Part shown: positions 11,546-41,131 of the stretch, piece after piece
Layout of the letters: each line of letters begins with the position of its first letter
Position numbering within the stretch: the stretch's first letter is position 1
Assembly (NCBI RefSeq): GCF_000024925.1
Contig: NC_013521.1
Span: 3,410,001 to 3,474,000, forward strand
Direction of reading: 5' to 3'
Origin: Sanguibacter keddieii DSM 10542
Lineage (GTDB): Bacteria; Actinomycetota; Actinomycetes; Actinomycetales; Cellulomonadaceae
DNA: 64,000 nt
The notes under the pieces: generated by a model
The model's input: the letters and a program-made list of their open reading frames with translations, nothing else
What the model was told of the DNA's origin: nothing
Database searches by the model: none
Program-made: the position numbers and the translations under genes

Positions 11546-12607
11546 ATGAGCGACTACGCGATCGAGGCGCACGGCCTCGTCAAGCACTTCGGGTCCACCC
11601 GAGCGGTCGACGGCATCGACCTCGAGGTCCCCGCCGGGACCGTCTACGGCGTGCTGGGCCCCAACGGGGCAGGCAAGACCACCGCGGTGCGGATGCTCGC
11701 GACCCTGCTGCGGCCCGACGCCGGCACCGCCCGGATCCTCGGCCACGACATCCTCCGCGAGGCCGACACCGTCCGCAGCCTCGTCGGCCTCACCGGGCAG
11801 TACGCCTCGGTCGACGAGGACCTCACCGGCGCCGAGAACCTCATGGTGCTCGCGCGCCTCTACGGGTTCTCCCGGCCCGCAGCCCGTCGGCGCGGCGCCG
11901 ACCTTCTCGAGGCCTTCGACCTCACCGAGGCGGCCGGCAAGCAGGTCAAGACGTACTCGGGCGGCATGCGGCGGCGCATCGACCTCGCCGCGAGCCTCGT
12001 GATGAGCCCCGCGGTGCTGTTCCTCGACGAGCCCACCACCGGCCTCGACCCGCGCAGCCGCAACGACGTGTGGGACATCGTCCGGGTGCTCGTGGACGAC
12101 GGCGCCACGGTGCTGCTCACCACCCAGTACCTCGAGGAGGCAGACCAGCTGGCGAACCGCATCGCCGTCGTCGACCACGGGAAGGTCATCGCCGAGGGCA
12201 CCGCCACGGAGCTCAAGAGCTCGGTGGGGTCGGGCTCGGTCCAGCTGCGCCTGGCCGACCCGTCACGCCGCGACGAGGCGGCGCGCATCGTCGCCGGCCT
12301 GCTCGGCGAGCCCGACGCCGTCTCGCTGTCCCCCGACCCGGCGGCGCTCTCGGCACGCATCGACAGCAGTGCCGACGGCTCCGCACGCGCCCACCAGATC
12401 CTGCCGAGGCTGCACGACGCGGGGATCCACGTCCCCGAGTTCTCGCTCGGCCAGCCGAGCCTCGACGAGGTGTTCCTCGCGCTCACGGGTCAGCCGACAG
12501 GCACAGGTCAGCCGACAGACACAGGGAAGCCGACAGACTCGACCCAGGGCACCGAGGCCGGGCCGGGCTCCGCGGCCGGGCAGACCACCGAGGAGGCCAC
12601 CTCATGA
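11546..12607 (+). CDS. ABC exporter ATP-binding protein, DrrA family
   Basis: A 353-residue ATPase. Walker A is GPNGAGKTT (38-46), the ABC signature is [14 protein letters not shown] and Walker B is [15 protein letters not shown]. Sequence, length and the C-terminal domain after [11 protein letters not shown] match the daunorubicin-resistance (DrrA) subfamily of exporters. The extreme C-terminus is a Thr/Pro/Gly tail built from an 18-bp repeat. The stop overlaps the ATG of the permease gene (ATGA). Substrate unknown; drug or lipid export is typical. Confidence 0.93.
12488..12541. repeat. Three tandem 18-bp units in the ABC ATPase gene
   Basis: Three imperfect 18-bp copies (core CAGCCGACAG) encode the repeated Gly-Gln/Lys-Pro-Thr-Asp/Gly-Thr tail. 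The first two differ at a single base, so the expansion looks recent. Confidence 0.75.
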
Positions 12608-24572: not shown

Positions 24573-25064
24573 TCAGCTGTTGATGACCAGCACCGAGAGC
24601 GTCCCCGGGCCGTACCCGGAGACGTCGCACTCGAGGTCGAGCCGCGGCACGTACGCGAGGACCCACGACGCCACGTCGTTGGGCAGCGCGCTCTTGGGCG
24701 GGTGCACGCTGCTGAGCCGCAGGTGCGGGGCACCCTCGGCGTTGAACAGCGACGCCATGACGTTGAGGATCTCGCCGGCGTTCTCGAGCAGGACGTCCGT
24801 GAGCTCGCCGGCCCCCACGGCGTTCTCCGACGCGTGCGAGGGCATGAGCGCGATGGACGCCCCCGCCCGCGCGGCGAGCGGCACGTCCATGACGACGAGC
24901 GCGTTCAGCTGCATCTGGTCGGAGACGAACTCGGCGACGAGCGCGCCGTCCTCGCTCCCCGGGTCGACCATCGGCCCACCGGTGACGACCTCGACCTCAC
25001 GGCCGAGCAGACCCTCGAGGAGCTCGCGGACCTCGAGGGCGCTCGGCAGGGGCGTGCCGGTCAT
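24573..25064 (-). CDS. cheX: CheX-like CheY-P phosphatase, second copy
   Basis: A 163-residue protein of the CheC/CheX/FliY fold. The catalytic E-x-x-N signature is present as E98-I-L-N101 in ENAGEILNVMASLF, with prolines about 21-22 residues later (VHPP) as the family requires. It probably dephosphorylates a CheY and resets swimming bias. Its start overlaps the stop of the adjacent cheY (ATGA), making a cheY-cheX pair that duplicates the upstream pair. It has diverged strongly from the first CheX, so confidence in exact family is moderate. Confidence 0.7.
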   Translation of the reverse strand: MTGTPLPSALEVRELLEGLLGREVEVVTGGPMVDPGSEDGALVAEFVSDQMQLNALVVMDVPLAARAGASIALMPSHASENAVGAGELTDVLLENAGEILNVMASLFNAEGAPHLRLSSVHPPKSALPNDVASWVLAYVPRLDLECDVSGYGPGTLSVLVINS

Positions 25065-25935: not shown

Positions 25936-26315
25936 GCGATCTCCTCCACGGGGAGCAGCCCGAGCAGCTCCAGCTTGTCCCGGAGCGCGTCCGGGGTGAA
26001 CGGTTTGATGAGGTACTCGTGGGCGCCGGCCGCGAGCGCACGGACGATCTGCCCGTGCTCGCTCTCGGTCGTCACCATCATGAGCGTGATGCCGCGCCAG
26101 GCGCGGTTCTCGCGGACCTTCGTGACGAAGGTCAGGCCGTCCATGACCGGCATGTTCCAGTCGATGCACGCGAGCTGGAACTCGTCCCCGACCTCGAGGG
26201 CGTCGAGGGCCTGCTGGCCGTCGCCGGCCTCGACCGTCTCGTAGCCGAGATCGGTCAGGACCGATGACACGATGCGGCGCATCGTCCGAGAGTCGTCGAT
26301 CACGAGTGCTTTCAT
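25932..26315 (-). CDS. cheY: CheY-type response regulator
   Basis: A 127-residue single receiver domain with D7, D8, phospho-acceptor D52 (ACIDWNMPVMDG), T82 (MMVTTES) and K104 (YLIKPF). It is coupled on both sides: its ATG overlaps the cheR stop and its stop overlaps cheX. Position directly after cheR makes it the best candidate for the motor-binding CheY phosphorylated by CheA. Confidence 0.93.
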   Translation of the reverse strand: MKALVIDDSRTMRRIVSSVLTDLGYETVEAGDGQQALDALEVGDEFQLACIDWNMPVMDGLTFVTKVRENRAWRGITLMMVTTESEHGQIVRALAAGAHEYLIKPFTPDALRDKLELLGLLPVEEIA

Positions 26316-27130
26316 GCTGGTCTCCCTGAGTTCTGGTAGATCGAGCTCCGGCCCACCTGGACACGGGTCCAGGCGTCGTCGATGCCGACGGTGGTCTCGG
26401 CAGCGCCGAGGACGAGGAACCCGCCCGGGCGCATCGTCGTGCGCAGGCGTCGCAGGATGTCCCGCTTCACCTCGACGTCGAAGTAGATGAGGACGTTGCG
26501 CAGGAAGACGATGTCGAAGGGTCCTCCTGCCGGCGGTGCGCTCAGCAGGTTGTGCTTGCTGAACCGCACCGTCGAGCGGATGTCGTCGGCGATCTGCCAC
26601 TGCGCGCCGACCTTGGTGAAGTGCTTGACGAGGAAGGTGACCGGGAGGCCCCGGTTGACCTCGAGCTGGGAGTAGAGACCGGCCCGGGCCTTGTCGAGCA
26701 CCTCGCCCGACAGGTCGGTCGCGGTGATCTCGGCCCGGCGGGCGCCGAGCTGCTCGCGCAGCACCATCGCGATCGAGTAGGGCTCCTGCCCGGTCGAGCA
26801 CGCGGCGGACCAGATGCGCAGGGGTGCGCCCGGCAGCAGCCGGCTGGTGGCCTCGGGGAGGATGTGGTCGGTGAGCGCCTGGAACGGCAGCGCGTCACGG
26901 AACCAGCTGGTCTCGTTGGTGGTGAGCGCCTCGACGATGAGCTCGGCCTCGAGCTGGTCGGGGCGGGTGCGCTGGCTGCGCACGTACTCGTCGACGGTCA
27001 CGTTGCGCCGCCGTGCGAGCGGCAGCAGCCGGCTCTCGACGAGGTACTCCTTGCCGGGTGCGAGGTGGATCGCGCTGCGGGAGCGGACCAGATCAGCGAC
27101 GAAGGTGAAGCTCTCCGTGGTCAGGCTCAC
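26312..27130 (-). CDS. cheR: Chemoreceptor glutamate methyltransferase CheR
   Basis: A 272-residue SAM-dependent methyltransferase that methylates receptor glutamates during adaptation. The N-terminal helical domain ends near TTNETSWFRD (71-80) and the SAM site is IWSAACSTGQEPYSIAM (106-122). FLRNVLIYFD is the late conserved motif. GTG at 27130 has AGGAGG at 7 bases and overlaps the cheB stop (GTGA). No C-terminal beta-subdomain insertion for receptor pentapeptides is obvious, consistent with receptors lacking that tail. Confidence 0.95.
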   Translation of the reverse strand: MSLTTESFTFVADLVRSRSAIHLAPGKEYLVESRLLPLARRRNVTVDEYVRSQRTRPDQLEAELIVEALTTNETSWFRDALPFQALTDHILPEATSRLLPGAPLRIWSAACSTGQEPYSIAMVLREQLGARRAEITATDLSGEVLDKARAGLYSQLEVNRGLPVTFLVKHFTKVGAQWQIADDIRSTVRFSKHNLLSAPPAGGPFDIVFLRNVLIYFDVEVKRDILRRLRTTMRPGGFLVLGAAETTVGIDDAWTRVQVGRSSIYQNSGRPA

Positions 27131-28239
27131 TGTGACACCTCCTGTGCTCCGGTGCTCGCCTGGACGAGCGCCGAGATGGTCTGCCCGATCTCGAGGATCG
27201 GGACGATGCGGTGCGCGTAGCCGGCCTGGGCGGTGACGCCCGGCATGCCCCACACGACCGAGGTCTTCTCGTCCTGGACGACGATCGTGCCGCCGGCCTC
27301 GGCGATGGCGCCCGAGCCGGCCTTGCCGTCGGCGCCCATCCCCGTGAGGATCACGCCGAGGAGGTCCGGCCCGATGGCGCCGAGGACCGAGCGGAAGAGC
27401 ACGTCGACCGACGGGCGGCAGAAGTTCACCGGTGCGCCGTGGGTGATCCGTGCCCGGAGGTTCCCGGCCTTGCCGTCGACCTCGAGGTGCGTGTCGCCCG
27501 GGGCGATGTAGATGCCGCCGGGGACGAGCGGCTGGCCGTCCTCCGCCTCGACGACGGTCGACGGCCCGAGGCGGTCGAGCCGGTTCGCGAGCTGGCGCGT
27601 GAACACGGCCGGCATGTGCTGGACGACGAGCATCGGCACGGGCAGCGGGACGGTGAGCCGCTCGACGACGCGCGAGAGCGCCTCGGGCCCACCGGTCGAG
27701 CAGCCGAGGACGACGGCGCGCACCGGGTGACGGCGTGCCCCCTGCCGCGGGGTCGCGGACCGGGCGGCGGGGACGGCGGCCACGGCGGCCCGGGCCGGCG
27801 CGACGGCACCGGTCCGGGGCGCCTGGGCCCGGGCCCCGGGGACGAGGGCGCGGATCTTCGGGATGAGCTGGTCGGCGACGGCCGCGAGGGACTCGTTGAT
27901 GGAGCCGACGTTCGAGGGCTTCGCGACGTAGTCGGAGGCCCCGGCCGACAGCGCGTCGAGCGTCGCGGTCGCGCCACGCTCGGTGAGCGTCGAGAACATG
28001 ATGATGGGCATCTGGTGCCCGCGCTTGCGCAGCTCGCGCACCGCCTCGACGCCGTTCATCTCGGGCATCTCGATGTCCATGGTGACCGCGTCGGGGCGCA
28101 GCTGCTCGACCTTGGCGAGCGCCAGCCTCCCGTTCGCGGCCGTGGACACCACCTCGACGTCAGGGTCGCTCTCGAGAGCCTGGACGACGAGCCGGCGGAT
28201 CACCACCGAGTCGTCGACCACGAGAACACGGATCGTCAT
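27127..28239 (-). CDS. cheB: Chemotaxis response regulator / methylesterase CheB
   Basis: A 370-residue two-domain enzyme. The receiver (1-125) has phosphorylation site D55 (VTMDIEMPEMNG). After an Ala/Arg/Pro linker the methylesterase domain has the catalytic triad S181 (LGCSTGGPEAL), H208 (VQHMP) and D304 (GMGADGKAG). It removes methyl groups from receptors and may deamidate them. It lies 27 bases past the receptor gene and is coupled to cheR. Confidence 0.96.
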   Translation of the reverse strand: MTIRVLVVDDSVVIRRLVVQALESDPDVEVVSTAANGRLALAKVEQLRPDAVTMDIEMPEMNGVEAVRELRKRGHQMPIIMFSTLTERGATATLDALSAGASDYVAKPSNVGSINESLAAVADQLIPKIRALVPGARAQAPRTGAVAPARAAVAAVPAARSATPRQGARRHPVRAVVLGCSTGGPEALSRVVERLTVPLPVPMLVVQHMPAVFTRQLANRLDRLGPSTVVEAEDGQPLVPGGIYIAPGDTHLEVDGKAGNLRARITHGAPVNFCRPSVDVLFRSVLGAIGPDLLGVILTGMGADGKAGSGAIAEAGGTIVVQDEKTSVVWGMPGVTAQAGYAHRIVPILEIGQTISALVQASTGAQEVSQ

Positions 28240-28266: not shown

Positions 28267-30018
28267 TCAGACCGCGAACGCCGCGGTCTGGGTACGGAGG
28301 TCGGCCGAGGCCGCCGTGAGCTCGTCGACGGTCTGGCCCATGCGGGCCACGACGTCGGAGGACTGGGAGGCGACGGCCGCGACGGAGCCGATGTGCACGG
28401 CGATCTCGCCGGCGCCCGCGGCAGCCTCAGTGATGCCGCGGCTCATCTCGTTGGTCGTCGCGGTCTGCTCCTCGACGGCCGAGGCGATGGTCATCTGGTA
28501 GTCGCTGATCGTGCGGATGATCCCCGAGATCTCGGAGATGGCCGTGACGGTCGAGCCGGTCTGCGACTGGATCTCGGCGATGCGGCGCGCGACGTCCTCG
28601 GCGGCGCGCCCCGACTCCCCCGCGAGCTCCTTGACCTCGTGCGCGACCACCGCGAAGCCCTTGCCGGCCTCGCCGGCGCGCGCGGCCTCGATGGTCGCGT
28701 TGAGGGCCAGCAGGTTGGTCTGCTCGGCGATGCTCGTGATCGCCTTGACGACGGTGCCGATGGCCTGGGACGACTCCCCGAGCAGCCGCACCGACTCGGC
28801 GGTGGACTCGGAGACCTGGACCGCCTGCGCGGCGACCTTCGCGGCCTCGTCGGCCGAGCCGGCGATCTCGCGGATCGACGCGCCCATCTGCTCCGCGCCG
28901 GCGGCGACGGACTGGATGGTGCGCGAGACCAGCTCGGCGGCCTCGGTCGCGACGGCCGCCTGCGCGCTCGTCGCCTCTGCCCCGCCGGACACCTGGGTGT
29001 TGGCGGCGCCGAGGTCCTCGGCGTTCTGGGCCACAGCGGTCGCGGTGCTCACCACGCCGGTCATGGCGCCGCGCAGGTTGGACACGGCGAGGTCGTAGGA
29101 CTGGGACATCTGCCCGAGCTCGTCGCGGCTGAGCACGTCGACCTCGTGGGTGAGGTCACCGGTCGCGAGGGACTCGAGGGCACCCTGGACGGACCGGATG
29201 CCCGACGTGATGCGTCGCACGACGAGCACCGCGAGCGTCACCGAGAGCCCTGCCCCGACCAGGAAGGACACCCCGAGCACGATGATGGTGCGGGAGACGT
29301 CGGCCTGGGCGTCGTGGAGCACCTCGGCGACCTGGAAGTCGATCTGGCCCTGCGCGAGCAGCAGCGCGCGCCCGGCGCGGTCGGGGTCGGCGGCGACGTC
29401 GGCCGCGAGGGCCTGCTCGACGCCGTCGACGTCGCCGGCCTCGACGAGGGGCAGCACGACGCCGTCGCGGTACGCGGTCCACTCCCCCCACCGGGTGACG
29501 AAGTCCTGCCACTGCTGGGTGCCGGACTGCTCGAAGGTCTCGACGTCGGCGATGAGGCGCTCGACGGTCGTGTCGTTCCAGTCGGAGGAGGTGAGGAGCT
29601 GGGTGCGCAGCGCGTCGTCGGGTGCTGCGGCCGCGCGGCGGACGAGCAGCTGGCTCGTGGCCTGCGCGGCGCGGAGGTCGCCGAGGTCGCCCTGGAGCTC
29701 GCCGGTGAGCGTGTTCACCTGGTCGAGGTGGTCGGCGGCGCGCCCGAGCGCGAGCGCCGCGACGCCTCCGACGGAGGCGAAGACGACGCCCATGACCACG
29801 AGCGACGTGCCGATCTTCACGGCGACGGGACGGTCCCAGAACCACCGGGCACGGGATGCGCGGGGCTCGCGGGCAGAGGGCTTCTCGCCGGGGCGCCCGG
29901 GGGCGGAGGAGCTGGCTGGCCGCTGCTGGGCAGCCGCGCCGTCACGGGGCGCGGTGCCGCTGCGGGGCGCGGGTGTGCTGGCTGTGGTGCGTGCAGGCCT
30001 GGTCGACGTCGTCGTCAT
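28267..30018 (-). CDS. Methyl-accepting chemotaxis protein with periplasmic-type helical sensor
   Basis: A 583-residue receptor. A 65-residue Pro/Ala/Ser/Arg cytoplasmic N-tail precedes TM1 (about 69-91). The extracytoplasmic region of about 150 residues is mostly helical, followed by TM2 (about 240-262), HAMP, and the kinase-control domain with the invariant tip [19 protein letters not shown]. The ATG overlaps the stop of the sugar-binding lipoprotein gene (ATGA), suggesting that this receptor reads out the loaded binding protein. The chain ends FAV, with no xWxxF pentapeptide. Confidence 0.95.
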
Positions 30019-31145
30019 CGCAGGTCCTCCTCGGTGTAGTAGCCGCCGCCGACCAGCAGCGACTCGTAGTTCGTGGCGGTCACCACGACGGGGGCGAGCA
30101 GGTAGGTCGGGACGGTCGTGACACCGTTGTCGTACGAGGTGACGTCGTTGACCTCGGGCGCGGTGCCCTTGAGGAGCGCGTCGCCCATGGCGACGGTGAC
30201 CTCGGCGAGCTGGCGGGTGTCCTTGTAGATGCTCGAGTACTGCTCGCCGGCGATCACGGACTTGATCGACGGCGCCTCGGCGTCCTGCCCGACGACCACG
30301 GGCAGCGGCCGGGCGGCAGTGCCGTAGCCCGCGCCCTTGAGGACGTCGATGATGGCGATCGAGATGCCGTCGTACGGGGACAGGACGCCGTCGATCACCA
30401 GGTCGGTGCCGGAGTACACGCTGTCGAGCAGGCGGGTCATGCGCTCGCCGCCGACCTTGGCGTCCCACGCCTCGATCGCGATGGTCGCGAAGTCCGTCTC
30501 GCCCGACGGCACCTCGAGCACACCCGAGTCCAGGTACGGCTGGAGGACGCTGAAGGCACCCTCGTAGAACACCGTCGCGTTGTTGTCGTCCGACGACCCG
30601 GCGAACACCTCGACCGTGTACGGCCCTTCTTCGCCGGTCGGCTCGCCCGCCTCGTCGAGGACCCCGAGGCCCTGGAGCAGCGAGGTGGCCTGCTGGGTGC
30701 CGACGCGGAAGTTGTCGAAGGTCGCGTAGTAGTCGACGTCCGGTGACTCCCGGATGAGCCGGTCGTAGGCGATGACCGGGATGCCGGCGTCTGCCGCCTG
30801 CGCGAGCTGGTCGGTGAGCGCCGTGCCGTCGATCGACCCGACCACGAGGAGGTCCGCCCCGGCGTCGATCATCGACTGGAGCTGGTCCACCTGGGTGGGG
30901 ACGTCGTTCTCGGCGTACTGCAGGTCGACCTGGTACCCGAGGGCCTCGAGCTGCGCCTTGAGGTTGTCCCCGTCCTCGATCCACCGCAACGACGTGGTCG
31001 TCGGCATCGCGACGCCCACGAGGGAGCCGTCGGCGCCGGCGGCGTCCGTCGAGCATCCTGCGAGGGCGAGCGGTGCGGCGAGGAGCAGCACGACGGCCGG
31101 CGCGATCAGGCGCGACGGCGAGGGTGGGCGGGAGAAGGACATCAT
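30015..31145 (-). CDS. ChvE-like sugar-binding lipoprotein in a chemotaxis operon
   Basis: A 376-residue periplasmic-binding-protein type I fold protein. Signal peptide with lipobox LALAGC puts acylated Cys at residue 31. Segments [31 protein letters not shown] and [19 protein letters not shown] match ChvE/XylF-type sugar-binding proteins. No ABC ATPase or permease is adjacent; instead it lies between two receptor genes, 5 bases after one and overlapping the other. The natural reading is a ligand-binding adaptor for chemotaxis. It may also feed a transporter encoded elsewhere. Confidence 0.88.
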
Positions 31146-31150
31146 CGGCC

Positions 31151-32374
31151 TCAGATCGTGAAGTGGGACACCTGGGACCGGAGGTCCCCGGAGAGGTCGG
31201 CGAGCTCGGTGACCGTGCCGCCGACGGCAGTGAGCACACCGGAGGAGGTGTGCGCGGACTCGGCGACGTCGGTGATCGTCGCGGAGATCTCAGAGGCCCC
31301 GGCAGCGGCGTCGCTGACGGAGCGGGTCATCTCGTTGGTCGTGGCGGTCTGCTCCTCGACCGCCGAGGCGATGGTCAGCTGGTAGTCGTTGATGCTCGCG
31401 ATGATCGACGAGATCTCACCGATCGCCGCGACCGCGGACGTCGTCTGCTCCTGCACCTGCGTGATCCGCCGCGCGATGTCCTCCGCAGCCCGACCCGACT
31501 CCGCAGCCAGGTCCTTGACCTCCGAGGCCACCACCGCGAAGCCCTTGCCCGCCTCACCCGCACGGGCCGCCTCGATCGTCGCGTTCAGCGCCAGCAGGTT
31601 CGTCTGCTCCGCGATGCTCGTGATCACCTTGACCACCGACCCGATCTCCCGCGACGTCTCGCCGAGCGCACCGACGGTCGCCGCGGTCGAGTTGGAGAAG
31701 GTGACGGCCTGGCTCGCGACCTTCGCGGCGTCGTTGGCGTTGGTCGCGATCTCACGGATCGACGCGCCCATCTGCTCGGCTCCGGCGGCGACGGTCTGCA
31801 CGTTGCGCGAGACCTGCTCGGCAGCCGTCGCGGCGACGCCCGCCTGGGTGCTGGTCTGGCTGACGCCCCCGGCCACCTGCGTGTTGGCTGCGGCGAGGTC
31901 GTCGGCCTTGCTGGCCACCGACCCGGCCGCGAGGGCGACCTGGGTGAGGGTGCCGCGCAGCTCGCCGCGGGCGATCTCGAAGGAGTCGACGATCGAGCCG
32001 ACCTCGTCGGAGTCGACGTGGACGGCGGGGTGCGTGAGGTCGCCGGCGGCGAGCTGGTCGATCGAGCCGCGCAGCATCTCGATGCTGCGACGGACCCGGG
32101 CGTTGACCGCGACCGTGAGGACGGTGCAGCAGATCGCGCCGATGACGAAGGCGACGGCGAGCACGGCGAGCGTGCGCGTCGCCTCCTGCTCGGCGGCGGT
32201 CGCGAGCTCTGCCGCGGCGACGGGGTCGGCCTCGGCCGACACGGCCCGCAGGCTCGACGCCGCGCTGCGCAGGGCCAGGGCACCGAGCCCGCCGACGACC
32301 GCGAAGACCGCCCCCATGAGCACCAGCGGTGCCGAGAACTTCACGCCGACGGGACGGTTCCAGAACCACTGCAT
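31151..32374 (-). CDS. Methyl-accepting chemotaxis protein with minimal sensor
   Basis: A 407-residue receptor, short for the family. TM1 (about 13-34) and TM2 (about 70-92) are separated by only about 35 residues, so almost no ligand-binding domain exists. HAMP and a full signalling domain with [19 protein letters not shown] follow. It may sense through a partner, for example the lipoprotein encoded 5 bases downstream, or through the membrane. ATG 32374 with AGGAG upstream is chosen over an earlier in-frame start at 32482. A sigma-28-like promoter lies at 32439-32469. Confidence 0.93.
31328..31666. repeat. Conversion tract shared with 32681-33019
   Basis: Positions 31328-31549 are identical base for base to 32681-32902 (222 bp), and the similarity continues with few mismatches to 31666/33019. 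Both encode the signalling tip of neighbouring receptors. Identity at silent sites points to recent gene conversion or duplication. Confidence 0.85.
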
Positions 32375-32503: not shown

Positions 32504-34126
32504 TCAGACCGTGAAGGTCCGGACCTGCGTGCGCAGCTCCGCCGAGGTCTGGGCGAGCCCGTCGACGGTCTCGGTCATCTGCCCCACGGTGACGGTCGAC
32601 TCGGCCGCGGCCGCGGCGACACCGGTGATGTTCGCGGCGATCTCGCCGGCCCCGGTCGCCGCCTCGGTCACCGAGCGCGACATCTCGTTGGTCGTGGCGG
32701 TCTGCTCCTCGACCGCCGAGGCGATGGTCAGCTGGTAGTCGTTGATGCTCGCGATGATCGACGAGATCTCACCGATCGCCGCGACCGCGGACGTCGTCTG
32801 CTCCTGCACCTGCGTGATCCGCCGCGCGATGTCCTCCGCAGCCCGACCCGACTCCGCAGCCAGGTCCTTGACCTCCGAGGCCACCACCGCGAAGCCCTTG
32901 CCGGCCTCGCCGGCACGGGCCGCCTCGATCGTCGCGTTCAGGGCCAGCAGGTTCGTCTGCTCCGCGATGCTCGTGATCACCTTGACCACCGACCCGATCT
33001 CCCGCGACGTCTCGCCGAGGTCGTTGATGGCGGCGGCTGTGGCGGTCGAGAACTCGACCGCCTGCCCGGCGACCTTCGCGGCCTCGTTGGCGTTGGTCGC
33101 GATCTCACGGATCGACGCGCCCATCTCCTCCGCGCCGGCGGCGACGGTCTGCACGTTGCGCGAGACCTGCTCGGCCGCGGCGGCGACGACGCCGGCCTGC
33201 GCGCTCGTCTCCTCGGCACCTGCGGCGACCTGGGAGCTGGAGGAGGCGAGGTGCTCCGCGGCGGAGGCGAGGACGTCGCTCGAGCCGACGACCCCGGCGA
33301 GCAGCGCGGCGATCGAGCGCTGCGCGTCCCCGAGGGACCGTGCCATGTCGCCGATCTCGTCGGCGCTCGAGACGTCGGGGATCCGGGTGAGGTCGCCGAC
33401 CGCGAGGGCGTCGAGGGCCTCGTTGACCTCGTGGGCGGACCGCTTCACGCGGCGGCCGAGGGCCAGGCTCAGCGTGACGACGACGGCCAGCCCGAGCAGG
33501 ACGGCGGCGACGACGATCGCGCCGTTGCGGGTCCGGGCGCTCGACATGTCGTCGTGGAGGGCGTCCGCGCGCCCGGTGAGGGACTCGCCGAGCTCGGCCG
33601 TCTGGCTCGTGATCGCGTAGTACTGCTCGTACCCGGCGCCCACGACCAGCGCGTCTGCCTCGACCTTCGAGGCCTCGGTCCCGTCCTCGTACAGCGCGAC
33701 GACCTGGTCGTCGACGGCCTCGAAGGCGTCCCAGCTGGAGGTGATGTCCTCGAAGGTCGCGAGCTCGGTGGGCGTCATGCTCTCCGTGTCGACCGCGTCG
33801 AGGAGGGAGCGGAGCTCCCCGATCGAGGTGAGGAACCCTGCCCTGTTGCCGGAGTCGGGTGCGACGGCGGCCTGCGGGCCCAGGGTGCTCGCGTCCCACG
33901 CGTAGGCGACCTGCCAGCCCGAGACGTCGGAGTTGTAGCGGGAGACCTCGGCCACCTGCAGGCGGAGCGCGTCGAGGCGGACGATCTGGTCGTTGGAGTC
34001 CTGCGAGGACGTGAGCCCGGCCCAGCCGGCGGAGGCGACCGCCACGGCGACGAGCATGCCCACGGCACCGACGGACAGGATCTTGGCGCGCAGGTCGTAG
34101 CGCGGACGGGTCTTCACGGCGGTCAT
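32504..34126 (-). CDS. Methyl-accepting chemotaxis protein
   Basis: A 540-residue receptor with TM1 near 14-36, an extracytoplasmic sensor of about 165 residues, TM2 near 203-225, HAMP and signalling domain. The signalling tip DNA is nearly identical to that of the downstream receptor (see repeat at 31328-31666). Its own sigma-28-like promoter lies at 34208-34238. The sensor does not match a named family by eye. The C-terminus is [10 protein letters not shown]. Confidence 0.95.
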
Positions 34127-34333: not shown

Positions 34334-35956
34334 TCAGTAGACGAAGCGCGCGACCCGTTCGCGCAGGTCAGACGACATCATGGCGAGCTCCTGGACCGCC
34401 GTGCCCATCTGGGCGACGACGTCGGACGCCGTCCCGGCGGCAGTCGCGACCCCGACGATGTTCTGCGCGATCTCACCCGACCCGGTGGCCGCCTCGGTGA
34501 CCGAGCGCGACATCTCGGTGGTCGTGGCCGTCTGCTCCTCGACCGCCGACGCGATGGTCAGCTGGTAGTCGTTGATGGTGGCGATGATCTCGCCGATGCC
34601 GGAGATCGCCGCGACCGCGGACTCCGTCTGGGTGCGGTTCACGTCGATCCGTCGCGCGATGTCCTCCGCGGCGCGGGCGGACTCGGCTGCGAGGTCCTTG
34701 ACCTCGGAGGCCACCACCGCGAAGCCCTTGCCGGCCTCGCCGGCACGGGCAGCCTCGATGGTCGCGTTGAGGGCGAGCAGGTTGGTCTGCTCCGCGATGC
34801 TCGTGATGACCTTGACGACCGCGCCGATCTCCTGGCTCGAGGTGCCGAGCTCGACGACCGTCGCGCGGGTGCGCTCGGACTGCTCGACCGCCTCGTTCGA
34901 CGCGCGGGCGGCCTCGTTGGCGTTCTGCGAGATCTCCCGGATCGACGCGCCCATCTGCTCGGCGCCCGCCGCGACCGTCTGGACGTTGCGGGACACCTGC
35001 TCGGCGGCTGCCGCGACCACGCCCGCCTGGACGCTGGTCTCCTCCGAGCCGGCGGCGACCTGGGTGGTCGAGGCCGACATCTCCTCGGCGGCCGCCGCGA
35101 CGGTCCCGGCCGTCGCGACGACGCCCGACACGAGCTCGCGCAGGTTGGTCTGGGCGGTGGTCAGCGACCCGGCCATCTGCCCGAGCTCGTCGCGCGAGTC
35201 GACACCGGTGGGGTGCGTGAGGTCGCCGTCGCCGAGCGCGACGATGGTGGACTGCACCTTGCGCAGGTTGCCGACGATCGAGCGGACGAGGGTGACCGCG
35301 ACGAGGGCGGCGAGCAGCGCTGCGACGATGCCGGCGACGATCATCGAGACGATCGCGGTACGGGCGGTCGAGGTGGACTCGGCGACCGACTGCGCGGCGC
35401 TCTCGTCGACCGCGTCGATGATCTCCTGGAGGGCGGTGGTCACCTCGGAGGTGATCGGTCGTACCTGCTCGAGGTAGGCGTCGTGGTACTCGATCGCCCC
35501 GTCCTCGGCGAACGGCGCGATGACCTGGAAGGCCGCCTGGTAGCGGCTGTAGGCGTCGGTCAGCGCCGCGAAGGCCGCGTCGTCGAGGACGTAGGGCTCG
35601 TAGGCCGCCATGCTCGCGAGGGCGTCGGTGTCGAAGCCCTCCATCTCCTGGAGGACCGTCACCTGGTCCTCGGGGGTGCTCATGCCGTACTCGAGCACCC
35701 GGGCGCGGCTCGCCTGGAACCAGCGCTGGACGCTGTTGAGGTCGGCCTGCGGGGCGATGGCCTCGCGGTTGAGGGTCTGCGTCTGCTGGTCGAGGGTGAG
35801 GATCCGCTGCGCGCCGACCGTGGTGATCATCGCGGTCAGCAGGATCACGATCCCGAAGCCGAGCCCGATGCGGACGGCGACCGGCAGGTCGGCGAGACGA
35901 CGACGGCGAGGCGCCGGGCTCGGGGCAGACGGGTGGGCGGGCGAGGGCGCAGACAT
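34334..35956 (-). CDS. Methyl-accepting chemotaxis protein
   Basis: A 540-residue receptor. After a Pro/Ser/Arg N-tail, TM1 is near 30-50, the helical sensor of about 150 residues contains [18 protein letters not shown] and TM2 is near 200-222. HAMP and the methyl-accepting domain follow, with [19 protein letters not shown] at the tip. The sensor looks like a four-helix bundle. A 136-bp stretch is identical to the next upstream receptor gene. Its promoter candidate is at 36020-36050. Confidence 0.95.
34716..34851. repeat. 136-bp tract identical to 36592-36727
   Basis: Both copies encode the signalling tip of adjacent receptors and are identical at every base, including silent positions. Outside the tract the genes diverge quickly. 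Confidence 0.85.
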
Positions 35957-36209: not shown

Positions 36210-37898
36210 TCAGTACCGGAAGGTCGAGACCTTCGAGTGGAGCTCCGACGCGATCCCGGCGAGGTCGTCGACACGACCGCCGAGGTCGGCGATCGCGATG
36301 TTCGAGACCTCGGCGGTCTGCGCGACGCCGGCCGCGTTGGACGCGATCTCGCCCGAGCCGGTGGCGGCCTCGGTCACCGAGCGCGACATCTCGTTGGTCG
36401 TGGCGGTCTGCTCCTCGACCGCCGAGGCGATGGTCAGCTGGTAGTCGTTGATGCTCGCGATGATCGACGAGATCTCGGCGATGGCGTCGACGGCCGAGCG
36501 GGTGTCGACCTGGATCGCCTCGACGCGCCGGGCGATGTCCTCGGTCGCCTTGGCGGTCTCCTGGGCGAGGTCCTTGACCTCGGAGGCCACGACCGCGAAG
36601 CCCTTGCCGGCCTCGCCGGCACGGGCAGCCTCGATGGTCGCGTTGAGGGCGAGCAGGTTGGTCTGCTCCGCGATGCTCGTGATGACCTTGACGACCGCGC
36701 CGATCTCCTGGCTCGAGGTGCCGAGCTTGGCGACCGTGTCGTTCGTGGCAGCGGCCACGGTCGTCGCGGAGTGCGCGACCTTCGCGGCCTCGTTGGCGTT
36801 GGTGGCGATCTCGCGGATGGACGCGCCCATCTGCTCGGCGCCCGCGGCGACCGTCTGGACGTTGCGGGAGACCTGCTCCGCCGCGGCGGCGACCACGCCG
36901 ATCTGCGCGCTCGACTCCTCCGAGCCGGTCGTCACCTGGGTGGCCCCGGCGCGCATGTCCTGCGCCGCGTCCGAGACGTTGCGGGCCGAGTCGGCCACCC
37001 CGCCGAGCACGTCGCGCAGGCTGCGCTGCGCGGTGACGAGCGCGCTCGCCATCGCACCGATCTCGTCGCGCGACGTGACGTGCGGCTCGACCGTGAGGTC
37101 GCCCTCGGCGAGCGCCTCGAGCGACCGCTGCACGGCGACCGTCGACCGGGTGATCGCCCGGGCGATGAGGATCCCGGTGGTGGCCCCGGCCGCGATCCCG
37201 AGGAGGCTCACGACGATGATGACGACCAGGCCGGAGTTTCCCGTGGAACGGGCCGTGTCGGCCAGCCCGGTGCTGTATGCCTCGGTCTCCGCCGCGCCCG
37301 CGTCGAGGTCGACGAGGTACTCGTCGATGAGCGGCTGGGACACCCGCGTGATGATCGCCTCGTACTTGGTGCGGTCGACCGAACGGGCGGCGGGGATGAT
37401 CTGGGCGTCGCGCACGTCGCGCCACTCGAGGAACTTGTCGATCCCGACGATCGCGCTGGAGCCGTCCTGGAACAGCGCCGCGCGGAGCTCGGCGATCGCC
37501 ACGTCCGTCTCGTCGTCGTTCTCGGCCTGCTTGTCGAGCCACTCGTTGACCCGGTTCTGGCTCGACGCCGCGGCGATCTGCGCGACGATGAGCCGCGCCT
37601 TGAGCTGGCCCTGGTGGATCTTGTTGAGCGGCACCACGATGTCCGACTGGACGACCGCGAGCTGGTTCGCGTCGTCCGAGATGGACCGGGTGGTGGTCAC
37701 CGCGACCGCACCGATGATGACGATGACGAGCACGAAGGCGCCGATGATCGCCCCGATGCGCTGCATCAGGCCGAGGCGCACCCCGCGGACCCCCGCCCCG
37801 CGCCGCTGAGCGGCGGGCTCAGCGGCGGCGGGAGCGTCGGTCTCGAGGGGCCCCTCAGGGGTCTCGGTCTCGCGGTGGTCGGACGTCAGGGCGGTCAT
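36210..37898 (-). CDS. Methyl-accepting chemotaxis protein
   Basis: A 562-residue receptor with a 45-residue cytoplasmic N-tail, TM1 near 47-70, an extracytoplasmic sensor of about 140 residues, TM2 near 213-235, HAMP and the signalling domain. It is the first receptor after cheW and has no clear sigma-28-like promoter of its own, so it is probably read from the cheA promoter despite the hairpin at 37930-37957. The C-terminus is [10 protein letters not shown]. Confidence 0.95.
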
Positions 37899-38011: not shown

Positions 38012-38431
38012 TCAGGCGGCGAGGGCGGCGTCGACGTCGAGCGTCAGCAGCAGCCCCTGGTCGAGCTTGAAGGCGCCGGTGATGAGCTCACGGCTCTGAG
38101 CACCGAGCGTCTCCGGGGGCGACTCGAACTGCTCCTCGTCGAGGGTGAGCACCTCGCCCACCTCGTCGACGAGCAGGCTGATCGAGTCGTCTGCGACCTC
38201 GACGACCACCATCATCGACTCGGCGTCGGCCGCCAGGGCCTCGAGGCCGAGCCGCGGGCGCAGGTCGACCGTCATGACCACCTGTCCGCGCAGGTTCACC
38301 AGGCCGGCGATGCCGACCGGGGCGAGCGGGACGGGTGTGCGGGCGTGGTGCCCGAGCGTCTCCGAGATCCGCATGACCTCGACGCCGTAGAGCGCCTCGC
38401 CGATGCGGAACGTCACGTACTGGGTCGACAT
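38012..38431 (-). CDS. cheW: Chemotaxis coupling protein CheW
   Basis: A 139-residue single CheW domain that links receptors to the kinase CheA. Opening MSTQYVTFRIGEALYGVEV, the GLVNLRGQVVMTVDLRPRLGL core and VDEVGEVL are typical. Its ATG overlaps the cheA stop (TGATG), ensuring matched amounts of the two proteins. Confidence 0.96.
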   Translation of the reverse strand: MSTQYVTFRIGEALYGVEVMRISETLGHHARTPVPLAPVGIAGLVNLRGQVVMTVDLRPRLGLEALAADAESMMVVVEVADDSISLLVDEVGEVLTLDEEQFESPPETLGAQSRELITGAFKLDQGLLLTLDVDAALAA

Positions 38432-40890
38432 CAGACTCCCACCATCTCTGCGTCGTGCGCATAGCCGAGGCCGGTGGCCCCGACCTGGTCCAGACCGTCG
38501 GCGCCGTGCACCGGGTCGCCGTCGTAGAAGCGCGGGTCGGCCTGCAGCAGCGCCGTCGGCACGTCGAGCAGCTCGGTGACGCGTCCCGAGAGGACGATCG
38601 ACCCGAGCAGGCCGATGTCGTCGACGGTGCTGCGCTCGGCGCCCGCGTCGGACACGATCTCGACGATCTCCGAGACCACCATGGCCACGGTGCGCTCGCC
38701 GCGGGTGAAGACCACCAGCGGGATCTCCTCGGTCGGCTCCTCGAAGGACCCGAGGGCACGCGCCAGGCGCGAGACCGGGACGATCGCGTCGCGGTACTGG
38801 ATGACCTCGTGGCCGCCGACGAGCTCGAGGCGGTCCTGGGCGACGAGCTCGAGGCGCGTGACCATCGCGAGCGGGACCGCGACACGACGGCCCGACCCGA
38901 TCCCGACGACCAGCAGCTCGGTGACCTCGCCGGCCGAGACCGTCTTCTCGACGGCCGCGCGGTGGTCGAGGTCGGCGACCTCGCCCGAGAGCGAGCGGCG
39001 TGCGATGGCCTGCACGTCGAGGATGAGCGCGACCTGGCCGTCGCCCATGAGCGTCGCCCCGGCGTAGATGCCGATCGTCTTGAGCTGGGCCGCGAGCGGC
39101 TTGACGACGATCTCCTCGTTGTTGAGGACGCGGTCGACGACGAGCCCGAAGCGCTGGTTGTCGGCCTGGAGGACCGCGATGACCGCGGAGTCCCCGTCGC
39201 CGCGCGTCTGGCCCATGACGTCGCTGAGGCGCACGAGCGGCAGCAGCGACCCGCGGAGGCGGTACACCTCGGCCGAGCCGATGTGCTCGATGGCTTCCTG
39301 CGTCTTCTGCGTGTCGAGGGCGACGAGCTCCTGCAGGTTGACCTGCGGGATCGCGTAGATCTCGGAGCCTGAGCGCACCGTGAGCGCTGGCATGATCGCG
39401 AGGGTCAGCGGGATGCGCAGGCGCCACGTGGTGCCGCGACCCACCTCGCTCTCGACCTCGACGGCCCCGCCGATGGACTCGATGTTCGAGCGGACCACGT
39501 CCATGCCGACACCGCGGCCGGACACGTTGGTGACGGCTGCGGCGGTCGAGAACCCGGGGAGGAACACGAGGTTGAGGATGTCGCTCGTGGCCATCGCGTC
39601 GAGCTGCTCGGCCGTCTTGAGGCCACGCTCGAGCGCCTTGGCGGCGACCTTCTGCGGGTCGATGCCCGCGCCGTCGTCGCGGACCTCGACCATGACCTGC
39701 CCACCGGCGTGGTAGGCGCGCAGGGTCAGGACACCGGTCGAGGGCTTGCCCGAGGCGGTGCGGGTCGCGGGCGACTCGATGCCGTGGTCGACCGCGTTGC
39801 GCACGAGGTGCGTCAGCGGGTCCTTGACGGACTCGAGGAGCGAGCGGTCGAGCTCGGTGTCCCCGCCGACCATCTCCAGGCGCACCTCACGGGCGCAGGC
39901 GGCCGCGAGGTCGCGCACGATGCGCGGCATCTTGGACCAGATGTGGTCGATCGGCTGCATGCGGGTCTTCATGACCCCTTCCTGCAGCTCGGAGGCGATG
40001 AGGCTCAGGCGCTGCGAGGAGCGCGTCAGCTCGGCGTCGGAGTCGAACCCGGCGAGCTGGGCGATCTGGTTGCGGACGAGCACGAGCTCGCCGACCTGGC
40101 GCATGAGGTCGTCGAGCAGGTCGACGTCCACGCGGATCGAGGACTCGCTCGTCCCGCGCGAGGCCACGGACTCGGTGGCCTCGGGGGCTGCCGGGCGCGC
40201 CGGGGCGGGCGTCGCCGCAGGAGCCACCGGCGTGGTGGGCGCGGCGGCGACGACGGCTGCCGTGACAGCAGCGGCAGACGCCGCAGCGCTCACGGCCCGG
40301 TCGCCGTCCTGGGCGTCCGTCGCGGCGAGGACCGCCGCGACAGCCTCGTCCGCTGCGGCCGAGGCCGCGGCGGCTGCCAGCGGTGCGGCCGCGGCGACGG
40401 CTGCTGCCGCGAGGTCCTCGGCCGTGGGCTGGCCGACCTCGGGCGCGGCTGCCTCGGGCACGGTGCTCTCGGCTGCGGCCTCGGGCGCGGTCTCCACCTC
40501 GTCCTCGCCGTCCAGCGCGCGCTGGATCACCGCGATGACGTCGTCGACCTCGATGCCGGCCTCGCCACCGGTCGACTCGATGCGACCGAGCAGGTCACGG
40601 ATCGTGTCCACCATGCGCAGCAGCACGTCGGTGGTGTGCTGGTCCATGAGGCGACGTCCGTCGCGCAGCTCGACGAGCAGGCTCTCCCCGACGTGCGCGA
40701 CCCTCTCGAGGTCGCCGAACGCCAGGAACCCGCTGGTTCCCTTGATCGTGTGGATCGTGCGGAAGACGCTCGAGAGCAGCTCACGCGATCCCGGGGCGCT
40801 CTCGAGCGCGACCAGGTCCTGGTCCAGCTGGTCCAGGTTCTCGTAGCTCTCGATCAGGAACTCCCGAACGATGTCGTCAATGTCGTCCAC
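38431..40890 (-). CDS. cheA: Chemotaxis histidine kinase CheA with two CheW-like domains
   Basis: An 819-residue kinase. The HPt domain carries the phosphorylated H47 (TIHTIKGTSGF). A long Ala-rich linker (about 130-225) replaces a clear P2 domain. The dimerisation and ATPase domains show the N box near 365 (LVRNAVDHGIE), G1 near 407 (DDGAGID) and G2 near 457 (GRGVGMD). Two CheW-like P5 units follow, about 500-640 and 655-785. GTG 40890 follows GGAGGG at somewhat long spacing; the sequence before it is non-coding. It phosphorylates CheY and CheB. The sigma-28-like promoter is at 40943-40973. Confidence 0.95.
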   Translation of the reverse strand: MDDIDDIVREFLIESYENLDQLDQDLVALESAPGSRELLSSVFRTIHTIKGTSGFLAFGDLERVAHVGESLLVELRDGRRLMDQHTTDVLLRMVDTIRDLLGRIESTGGEAGIEVDDVIAVIQRALDGEDEVETAPEAAAESTVPEAAAPEVGQPTAEDLAAAAVAAAAPLAAAAASAAADEAVAAVLAATDAQDGDRAVSAAASAAAVTAAVVAAAPTTPVAPAATPAPARPAAPEATESVASRGTSESSIRVDVDLLDDLMRQVGELVLVRNQIAQLAGFDSDAELTRSSQRLSLIASELQEGVMKTRMQPIDHIWSKMPRIVRDLAAACAREVRLEMVGGDTELDRSLLESVKDPLTHLVRNAVDHGIESPATRTASGKPSTGVLTLRAYHAGGQVMVEVRDDGAGIDPQKVAAKALERGLKTAEQLDAMATSDILNLVFLPGFSTAAAVTNVSGRGVGMDVVRSNIESIGGAVEVESEVGRGTTWRLRIPLTLAIMPALTVRSGSEIYAIPQVNLQELVALDTQKTQEAIEHIGSAEVYRLRGSLLPLVRLSDVMGQTRGDGDSAVIAVLQADNQRFGLVVDRVLNNEEIVVKPLAAQLKTIGIYAGATLMGDGQVALILDVQAIARRSLSGEVADLDHRAAVEKTVSAGEVTELLVVGIGSGRRVAVPLAMVTRLELVAQDRLELVGGHEVIQYRDAIVPVSRLARALGSFEEPTEEIPLVVFTRGERTVAMVVSEIVEIVSDAGAERSTVDDIGLLGSIVLSGRVTELLDVPTALLQADPRFYDGDPVHGADGLDQVGATGLGYAHDAEMVGV

Positions 40891-40942
40891 TGACGCACTC
40901 CCTCCGCTTCGCGGACGGATAGTTCTACCCGTCACGATCCAC

Positions 40943-40973
40943 AGATCGGTCGCCACGGACCGGGTATGAGGGA
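40943..40973 (-). promoter_or_regulatory. Sigma-28-like promoter of cheA-cheW
   Basis: CTCA (40970-40967), 16 bases, then ACCGATCT (40950-40943). The decamer CCTCATACCC around the -35 box is identical to those ahead of flbD and fliM. The expected leader is about 45 bases. Confidence 0.6.
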
Positions 40974-41131
40974 TTGAACCGTCAACCACCGGGTGACTCG
41001 TGGGCGACGGCGCACACACGGCACCGGGCGGCCGGGCCACGGAGGCTCCGTGCCGCAGCCCGTGCGCGGCACACCTCGACACGCAGCACACCGAGCGGTG
41101 GACCTCGCAGCGTGGCCGGGAACCCCTGGGG

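Follow-up and report, generated by a model that had tools for sequence, protein, structure and literature searches.

The locus examined here raises the question of why a gene for a sugar-binding lipoprotein (SBP) lies between two receptor genes in a chemotaxis operon. The window, that is, the whole stretch of DNA that was analysed, covers 64,000 nt of Sanguibacter keddieii DSM 10542 (NC_013521.1, positions 3,410,001 to 3,474,000, forward strand), and feature coordinates are counted from its first letter. Its long che operon runs on the minus strand in the order cheA, cheW, MCP1, MCP2, MCP3, MCP4, SBP, MCP5, cheB, cheR and cheY/cheX-type genes, contains five MCP genes, and is the only cheA operon in this genome. 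The che, receptor and SBP genes listed below are all on the minus strand. The cheA gene (38431..41091; Pfam Hpt, H-kinase_dim, HATPase_c and CheW) is given as the ORF listed, and its true start may be downstream. It is followed by cheW (38012..38434, assigned from its translation and orthologues) and by the sibling receptors MCP1 (36210..37898), MCP2 (34334..35956) and MCP3 (32504..34126), each assigned by Pfam. At the other end are cheB (27127..28239, assigned by sequence and by orthologues at the same place) and cheR (26312..27253, Pfam CheR; the ORF as listed, with a true start that is probably downstream). On the cheA side, the operon is accompanied by flagellar genes of the FlhA, FlhB, FliQ, FliO, FliN, FliM, MotB, FlgE, FliI, FliG, FliF and FliE families. 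Scans for promoters and terminators were negative, a result that carries little weight at this GC content. We also note that the che operon ends with an ORF (24573-25064) that is conserved in relatives and has no Pfam match.

The SBP gene (30015..31145) encodes a protein of 376 aa that is identified as ChvE-type by NCBIfam ChvE, Pfam Peripla_BP_4 and its AF2 model. The protein scores 481.4 bits against NCBIfam ChvE (NF040907), above the cut-off of 460. ChvE 3urm is its best PDB match by sequence, and structural alignment of the AF2 model (pLDDT 93.9) with 3urm gives TM 0.91/0.96 and rmsd 1.7. Its signal peptide carries the lipobox LALAGC, with the lipobox cysteine as predicted mature N-terminus; by this motif, the protein is predicted to be lipidated and thus anchored in the membrane. 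The SBP start is 5 nt past the MCP4 stop, and the stop codon TGA overlaps the ATG of MCP5 (30018) by 4 nt as ATGA. The initial annotation had described just this arrangement, a ChvE-like lipoprotein gene 5 nt from one receptor gene and overlapping the other, and it is borne out. The same is true of its statement that transporter genes are missing nearby: no BPD_transp_2 permease was detected in the window, and the sole strong ABC ATPase is a DrrA-like gene (11546-12607) located 18 kb from SBP. The SBP gene does not have the neighbouring ABC ATPase and permease genes that go with a transport role in the NF040907 family.

One possible explanation is that SBP is an ordinary transporter SBP that came to lie in the che operon by accident, and it does belong to a transporter SBP family. 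We searched 222 genomes of the family with the alignment of the MCP5 sensor, counting scores of at least 270 bits as orthologues; below these, the next scores are 190 bits and lower, and belong to paralogues. An MCP5 sensor orthologue is present in 59 of the 222 genomes, and an SBP gene is directly upstream of it in 57 of the 59 (58 of 60 loci with Georgenia included). Among the 58 pairs, stop and start overlap as ATGA in 28 and as TGATG in 26, are separated by a 1-nt gap in 2, and are unresolved in 2. The other neighbours of the pair vary between genomes. Because the same pair recurs in nearly all receptor-holding genomes of the family, the pairing exceeds chance. Linkage to MCP5 with overlapping frames, kept while other neighbours change, leaves accidental placement strongly disfavoured, with a probability close to nil.

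Additional searches define how far the pair extends. Besides the window's own genome, none of the genomes in a 396-genome sample of the phylum has an MCP5 sensor orthologue. When the best 80 relatives of SBP in a named-genome collection were inspected, 75 had ABC genes beside them, four (from two Actinotalea, Cellulomonas triticagri and Georgenia satyanarayanai) were next to an MCP5-like receptor, and one, from Actinomadura alba, had neither. In a check for receptor-type SBPs away from MCP5, 11 of the 12 high-scoring SBPs examined are encoded with MmsA/MmsB and one is at a contig end. In about eight genomes the pair has no che or MCP gene in the flanks read; the neighbours of these stand-alone pairs are mostly housekeeping genes, and examples include pairs close to tRNA-synthetase or Tad-pilus-type genes. 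MCP5 is found in 58 of 119 cheA-positive genomes versus 1 of 103 cheA-negative genomes, the sole exception being an incomplete draft. The Fisher p value for this association is 1e-18, but it counts genomes as independent, which they are not, so it is only indicative.

The MCP5 gene (28267..30018), which has GAGGAGG just upstream of its start, encodes a chemoreceptor with an ectodomain of ~145 aa, a HAMP domain and an MCP signalling domain. Both Pfam domains score above their cut-offs (MCPsignal, 103.7 versus 34.6 bits; HAMP, 37.9 versus 25 bits), and the ectodomain falls below that of Pfam 4HB_MCP_1 (24.0 versus 27). The sensor model is all-helical and is modelled as a four-helix bundle (pLDDT 85.7); chemoreceptor ligand-binding domains (MCP2201, Tsr) are among its best matches, with TMt 0.66-0.70 and weak E-values of 0.01-0.3. 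The sensor module (29179..29844), comprising TM1, ectodomain, TM2 and the start of HAMP, is the proposed docking site. Mean column identity in its alignment, A2, is 74%, and the best-conserved segment is the membrane-distal half of helix 4. In LytS, the cognate receptor of XylFII, the binding protein contacts helices H3 and H4 of the 4HB module (PMC9769921). Within the genus, conservation of the MCP5 sensor equals that of the MCP5 signalling domain (67-74% and 67-70%, respectively), whereas the sensor of the sibling receptor MCP1 goes down to 38-45%, with 77-80% for the signalling domain.

Two genomes, G018 and G090, have MCP5 without an adjacent SBP gene (L192:4531-6369 and L198:4815-6500), and in G103 (L180:5845-7083) a frameshift or an assembly error divides the SBP gene between two reading frames, next to an intact MCP5. 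Based on these three genomes, MCP5 may be able to work without SBP. MCP5 might even sense its ligand directly, with SBP merely concentrating or buffering that ligand, as G018 and G090 would allow; the 4HB domains of other MCPs are capable of direct binding of small ligands. Alternatively, the output could be something other than flagellar chemotaxis. We consider both of these very unlikely. By comparison with MCP1, the sensor of MCP5 is unusually conserved for a domain that binds its ligand directly. An output other than flagellar chemotaxis fits poorly with a pair located in the genome's only cheA operon, adjoined by flagellar genes, and with the restriction of MCP5 to cheA-positive genomes. 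As separate observations, G018 encodes a transporter-type SBP that has 63% identity to the one in the window and could stand in for the missing protein; and MCP5-like receptors of a further, more distantly matching group (L206, L208, L209 and L210; sensor scores of 62-120 bits) are encoded beside cheA without an SBP.

The initial annotation had proposed a dedicated binding-protein/receptor chemosensory module in a Gram-positive, from a lipoprotein gene with a receptor gene on either side. Comparative genomics supports this well for the lipoprotein and MCP5 and not for MCP4, so the module has two genes rather than three. MCP4 (31151..32374), which we characterised by TM scan, segment scores and BLASTP to MCP5, is the receptor that had been singled out for having almost no extracellular domain: only ~25 aa separate its TM segments (8-39 and 64-94), versus ~145 aa in MCP5. 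MCP4 is restricted to the window's genus, where it is present in three of the five pair-bearing genomes (G000, G001 and G005) and missing from G004. In G002, its position is occupied by a remnant of ~85 aa (L056:8595-9194) that retains the WFW N-terminus and the C-terminal tail and has no signalling domain. This confinement to one genus, the near-absence of an ectodomain, and the reduction or loss of the gene in sister species led us to reject a scheme with both flanking receptors as partners; MCP4 is probably not the binding partner of SBP. The first 46 residues and the TM2-HAMP region of MCP4 are far closer to MCP5 than to the sibling receptors, and its signalling part is closest to MCP3. 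Within the signalling domains, 222 bp are identical between MCP4 (31328-31549) and MCP3 (32681-32902), which suggests recent gene conversion among sibling receptors. From this mosaic of MCP5-like and MCP3-like parts, MCP4 looks like a duplicate of MCP5 in which the ectodomain has been lost and gene conversion has written MCP3 sequence over the original.

We used a maximum-likelihood tree of 128 SBPs to place the receptor-linked proteins among their relatives. A single branch (SH-aLRT 100, length 0.45) splits all 46 receptor-linked SBPs from all 82 transporter-type SBPs. Because the receptor-linked proteins share one side of one branch, they would appear to descend from a single capture, in this group, of the binding subunit from a sugar importer of the MmsA/MmsB type. 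The possibility that SBP is an orphaned transporter SBP was rejected in view of the conserved linkage to MCP5 and the separate clade. We also compared individual sites between the receptor-linked class and 81 transporter-type SBPs, the latter including proteins from Alphaproteobacteria. Both classes have R54W55, Y127DR, F143DN, D186DNN, W227, D259, Q287D and K308, motifs that we take to line the sugar site in the XylF/ChvE fold family. The 81 transporter SBPs show little or no variation at Q76, N177, R226, Q233 and K343, positions that are variable in the receptor-linked class, and Q65, D164 and E315 have the opposite pattern. This distribution fits release from a permease together with gain of a new partner, although we infer the roles of the individual residues.

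The main rival is a bifunctional SBP, which would supply a transporter encoded elsewhere and also stimulate MCP5. Exactly two proteins in the genome exceed the ChvE cut-off. The second is encoded 320 kb away, at 3.118-3.121 Mb, in an MmsA/MmsB-type operon where ATPase and permease genes come after it, and it is 55% identical to the window's SBP. A related ATPase/permease pair that SBP might serve is thus present, and the proposed pocket motifs are unchanged. In E. coli, MglB and RbsB each combine transport with stimulation of Trg. Classical precedents such as Agrobacterium ChvE are bifunctional as well (PMC4086400). However, the MmsA/MmsB operon already includes a ChvE for its transporter, the receptor-linked clade tolerates variation at residues that are invariant in the 81 transporter SBPs, and no matching transporter was found beside any receptor-linked SBP examined. 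We therefore regard a bifunctional SBP as improbable; on these comparisons of sequence, the receptor-linked SBP probably no longer serves a transporter.

The explanation that we consider likely is that SBP and MCP5 are a dedicated, co-translated sensory pair, in which sugar-loaded SBP docks on MCP5 and controls CheA. Lipid-anchored SBP, at the outer face of the membrane, would close on a monosaccharide, which by family resemblance may be an aldose or a sugar acid. The closed protein would then dock on the membrane-distal part of the helical ectodomain of MCP5. MCP5, in arrays with CheA and CheW, would shift CheA activity and thereby flagellar rotation, with adaptation provided by CheR/CheB. 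For this particular pair we infer docking, sign of the response, ligand and taxis. The overlap of the two genes suggests co-translation at a fixed ratio, which leaves room for a more tentative proposal: SBP could be a permanently associated chemoreceptor subunit, made at ~1:1 and held at the membrane by its lipid anchor, with sugar closing an SBP that is already docked. We see this as possible and not as the expected outcome. If true, SBP and MCP5 would form a chemoreceptor of two subunits that arose once, through capture of a transporter part, whereas the soluble binding proteins of Trg and Tar are in excess and dock only transiently.

Binding-protein chemotaxis and dedicated pairs are already known, and SBP-MCP5 is a variant of that mechanism; we found no earlier description of this pair in the open-licence literature searched. 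The nearest dedicated chemotaxis pairs are reportedly BasB/BasT and CosB/CosT of Halobacterium salinarum, for which Kokoeva et al. (2000, 2002) are said to have described binding-protein-mediated chemotaxis with a lipid-anchored binding protein encoded beside the transducer, apparently without a transporter of its own. By that description SBP-MCP5 would resemble BasB/BasT in its working: the SBP gene adjoins the receptor gene, this is conserved across the loci counted above (58/60), and SBP carries a lipobox. Unlike SBP-MCP5, BasB/BasT and CosB/CosT are archaeal and serve amino acids and osmoprotectants. Among Gram-positives, the Bacillus subtilis chemoreceptor McpC reportedly makes use of binding proteins as well in its sensing (Glekas et al. 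2012), but its SBPs are said to come from ABC transporters encoded elsewhere, and its sensor domain to be of another type than that of MCP5. In E. coli, MglB or RbsB, sugar-binding proteins of the Peripla_BP_4 type, act on the 4HB chemoreceptor Trg, and we propose a comparable arrangement for SBP-MCP5; in contrast to SBP, MglB and RbsB are soluble, are shared with transporters, and have genes that are not beside trg.

Activation of receptors by SBPs is widespread, including among E. coli receptors (PMC9602780), and Agrobacterium ChvE mediates both sugar chemotaxis and activation of the receptor VirA (PMC4086400). ChvE is in the same SBP family (NF040907), and SBP is 55% identical to 3urm in the structural alignment. 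However, Agrobacterium has one shared periplasmic ChvE, while the S. keddieii genome has separate transporter-linked and receptor-linked copies. Separate SBPs for sensing and uptake are found in CuaD/CuaS and XylFII/LytS, Gram-positive three-component systems of clostridia in which, as in SBP-MCP5, the gene for the sensing SBP is beside the sensor gene (PMC10384115). The LytS ectodomain is a 4HB (PMC9769921). The output of these systems is a histidine kinase and gene expression, as opposed to an MCP in our case. In GlnH/GlnX of Corynebacterium, also an actinobacterium, a lipoprotein SBP is encoded together with a membrane receptor of the 4HB type, but GlnH is from another SBP family and the output is through PknG (PMC9769921).

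This soil actinobacterium and its relatives appear to have recruited a spare copy of a sugar-uptake binding protein for one chemotaxis receptor, and SBP is likely to inform the swimming machinery about sugar rather than supply a pump. The pair would be a clear example of the conversion, on one occasion, of a transport protein into a dedicated Gram-positive chemotaxis sensor. The genome's second ChvE is a matched relative of transporter type, and comparing SBP with it would test directly which residues serve the pump and which the receptor. SBP-MCP5 may also explain part of the sugar sensing in plant-polymer degraders of the Cellulomonas type. One stand-alone pair (L199:1750-6138) is located near genes for a GH36 alpha-galactosidase and a GGDEF protein, a possible but not conclusive hint at the ligand.
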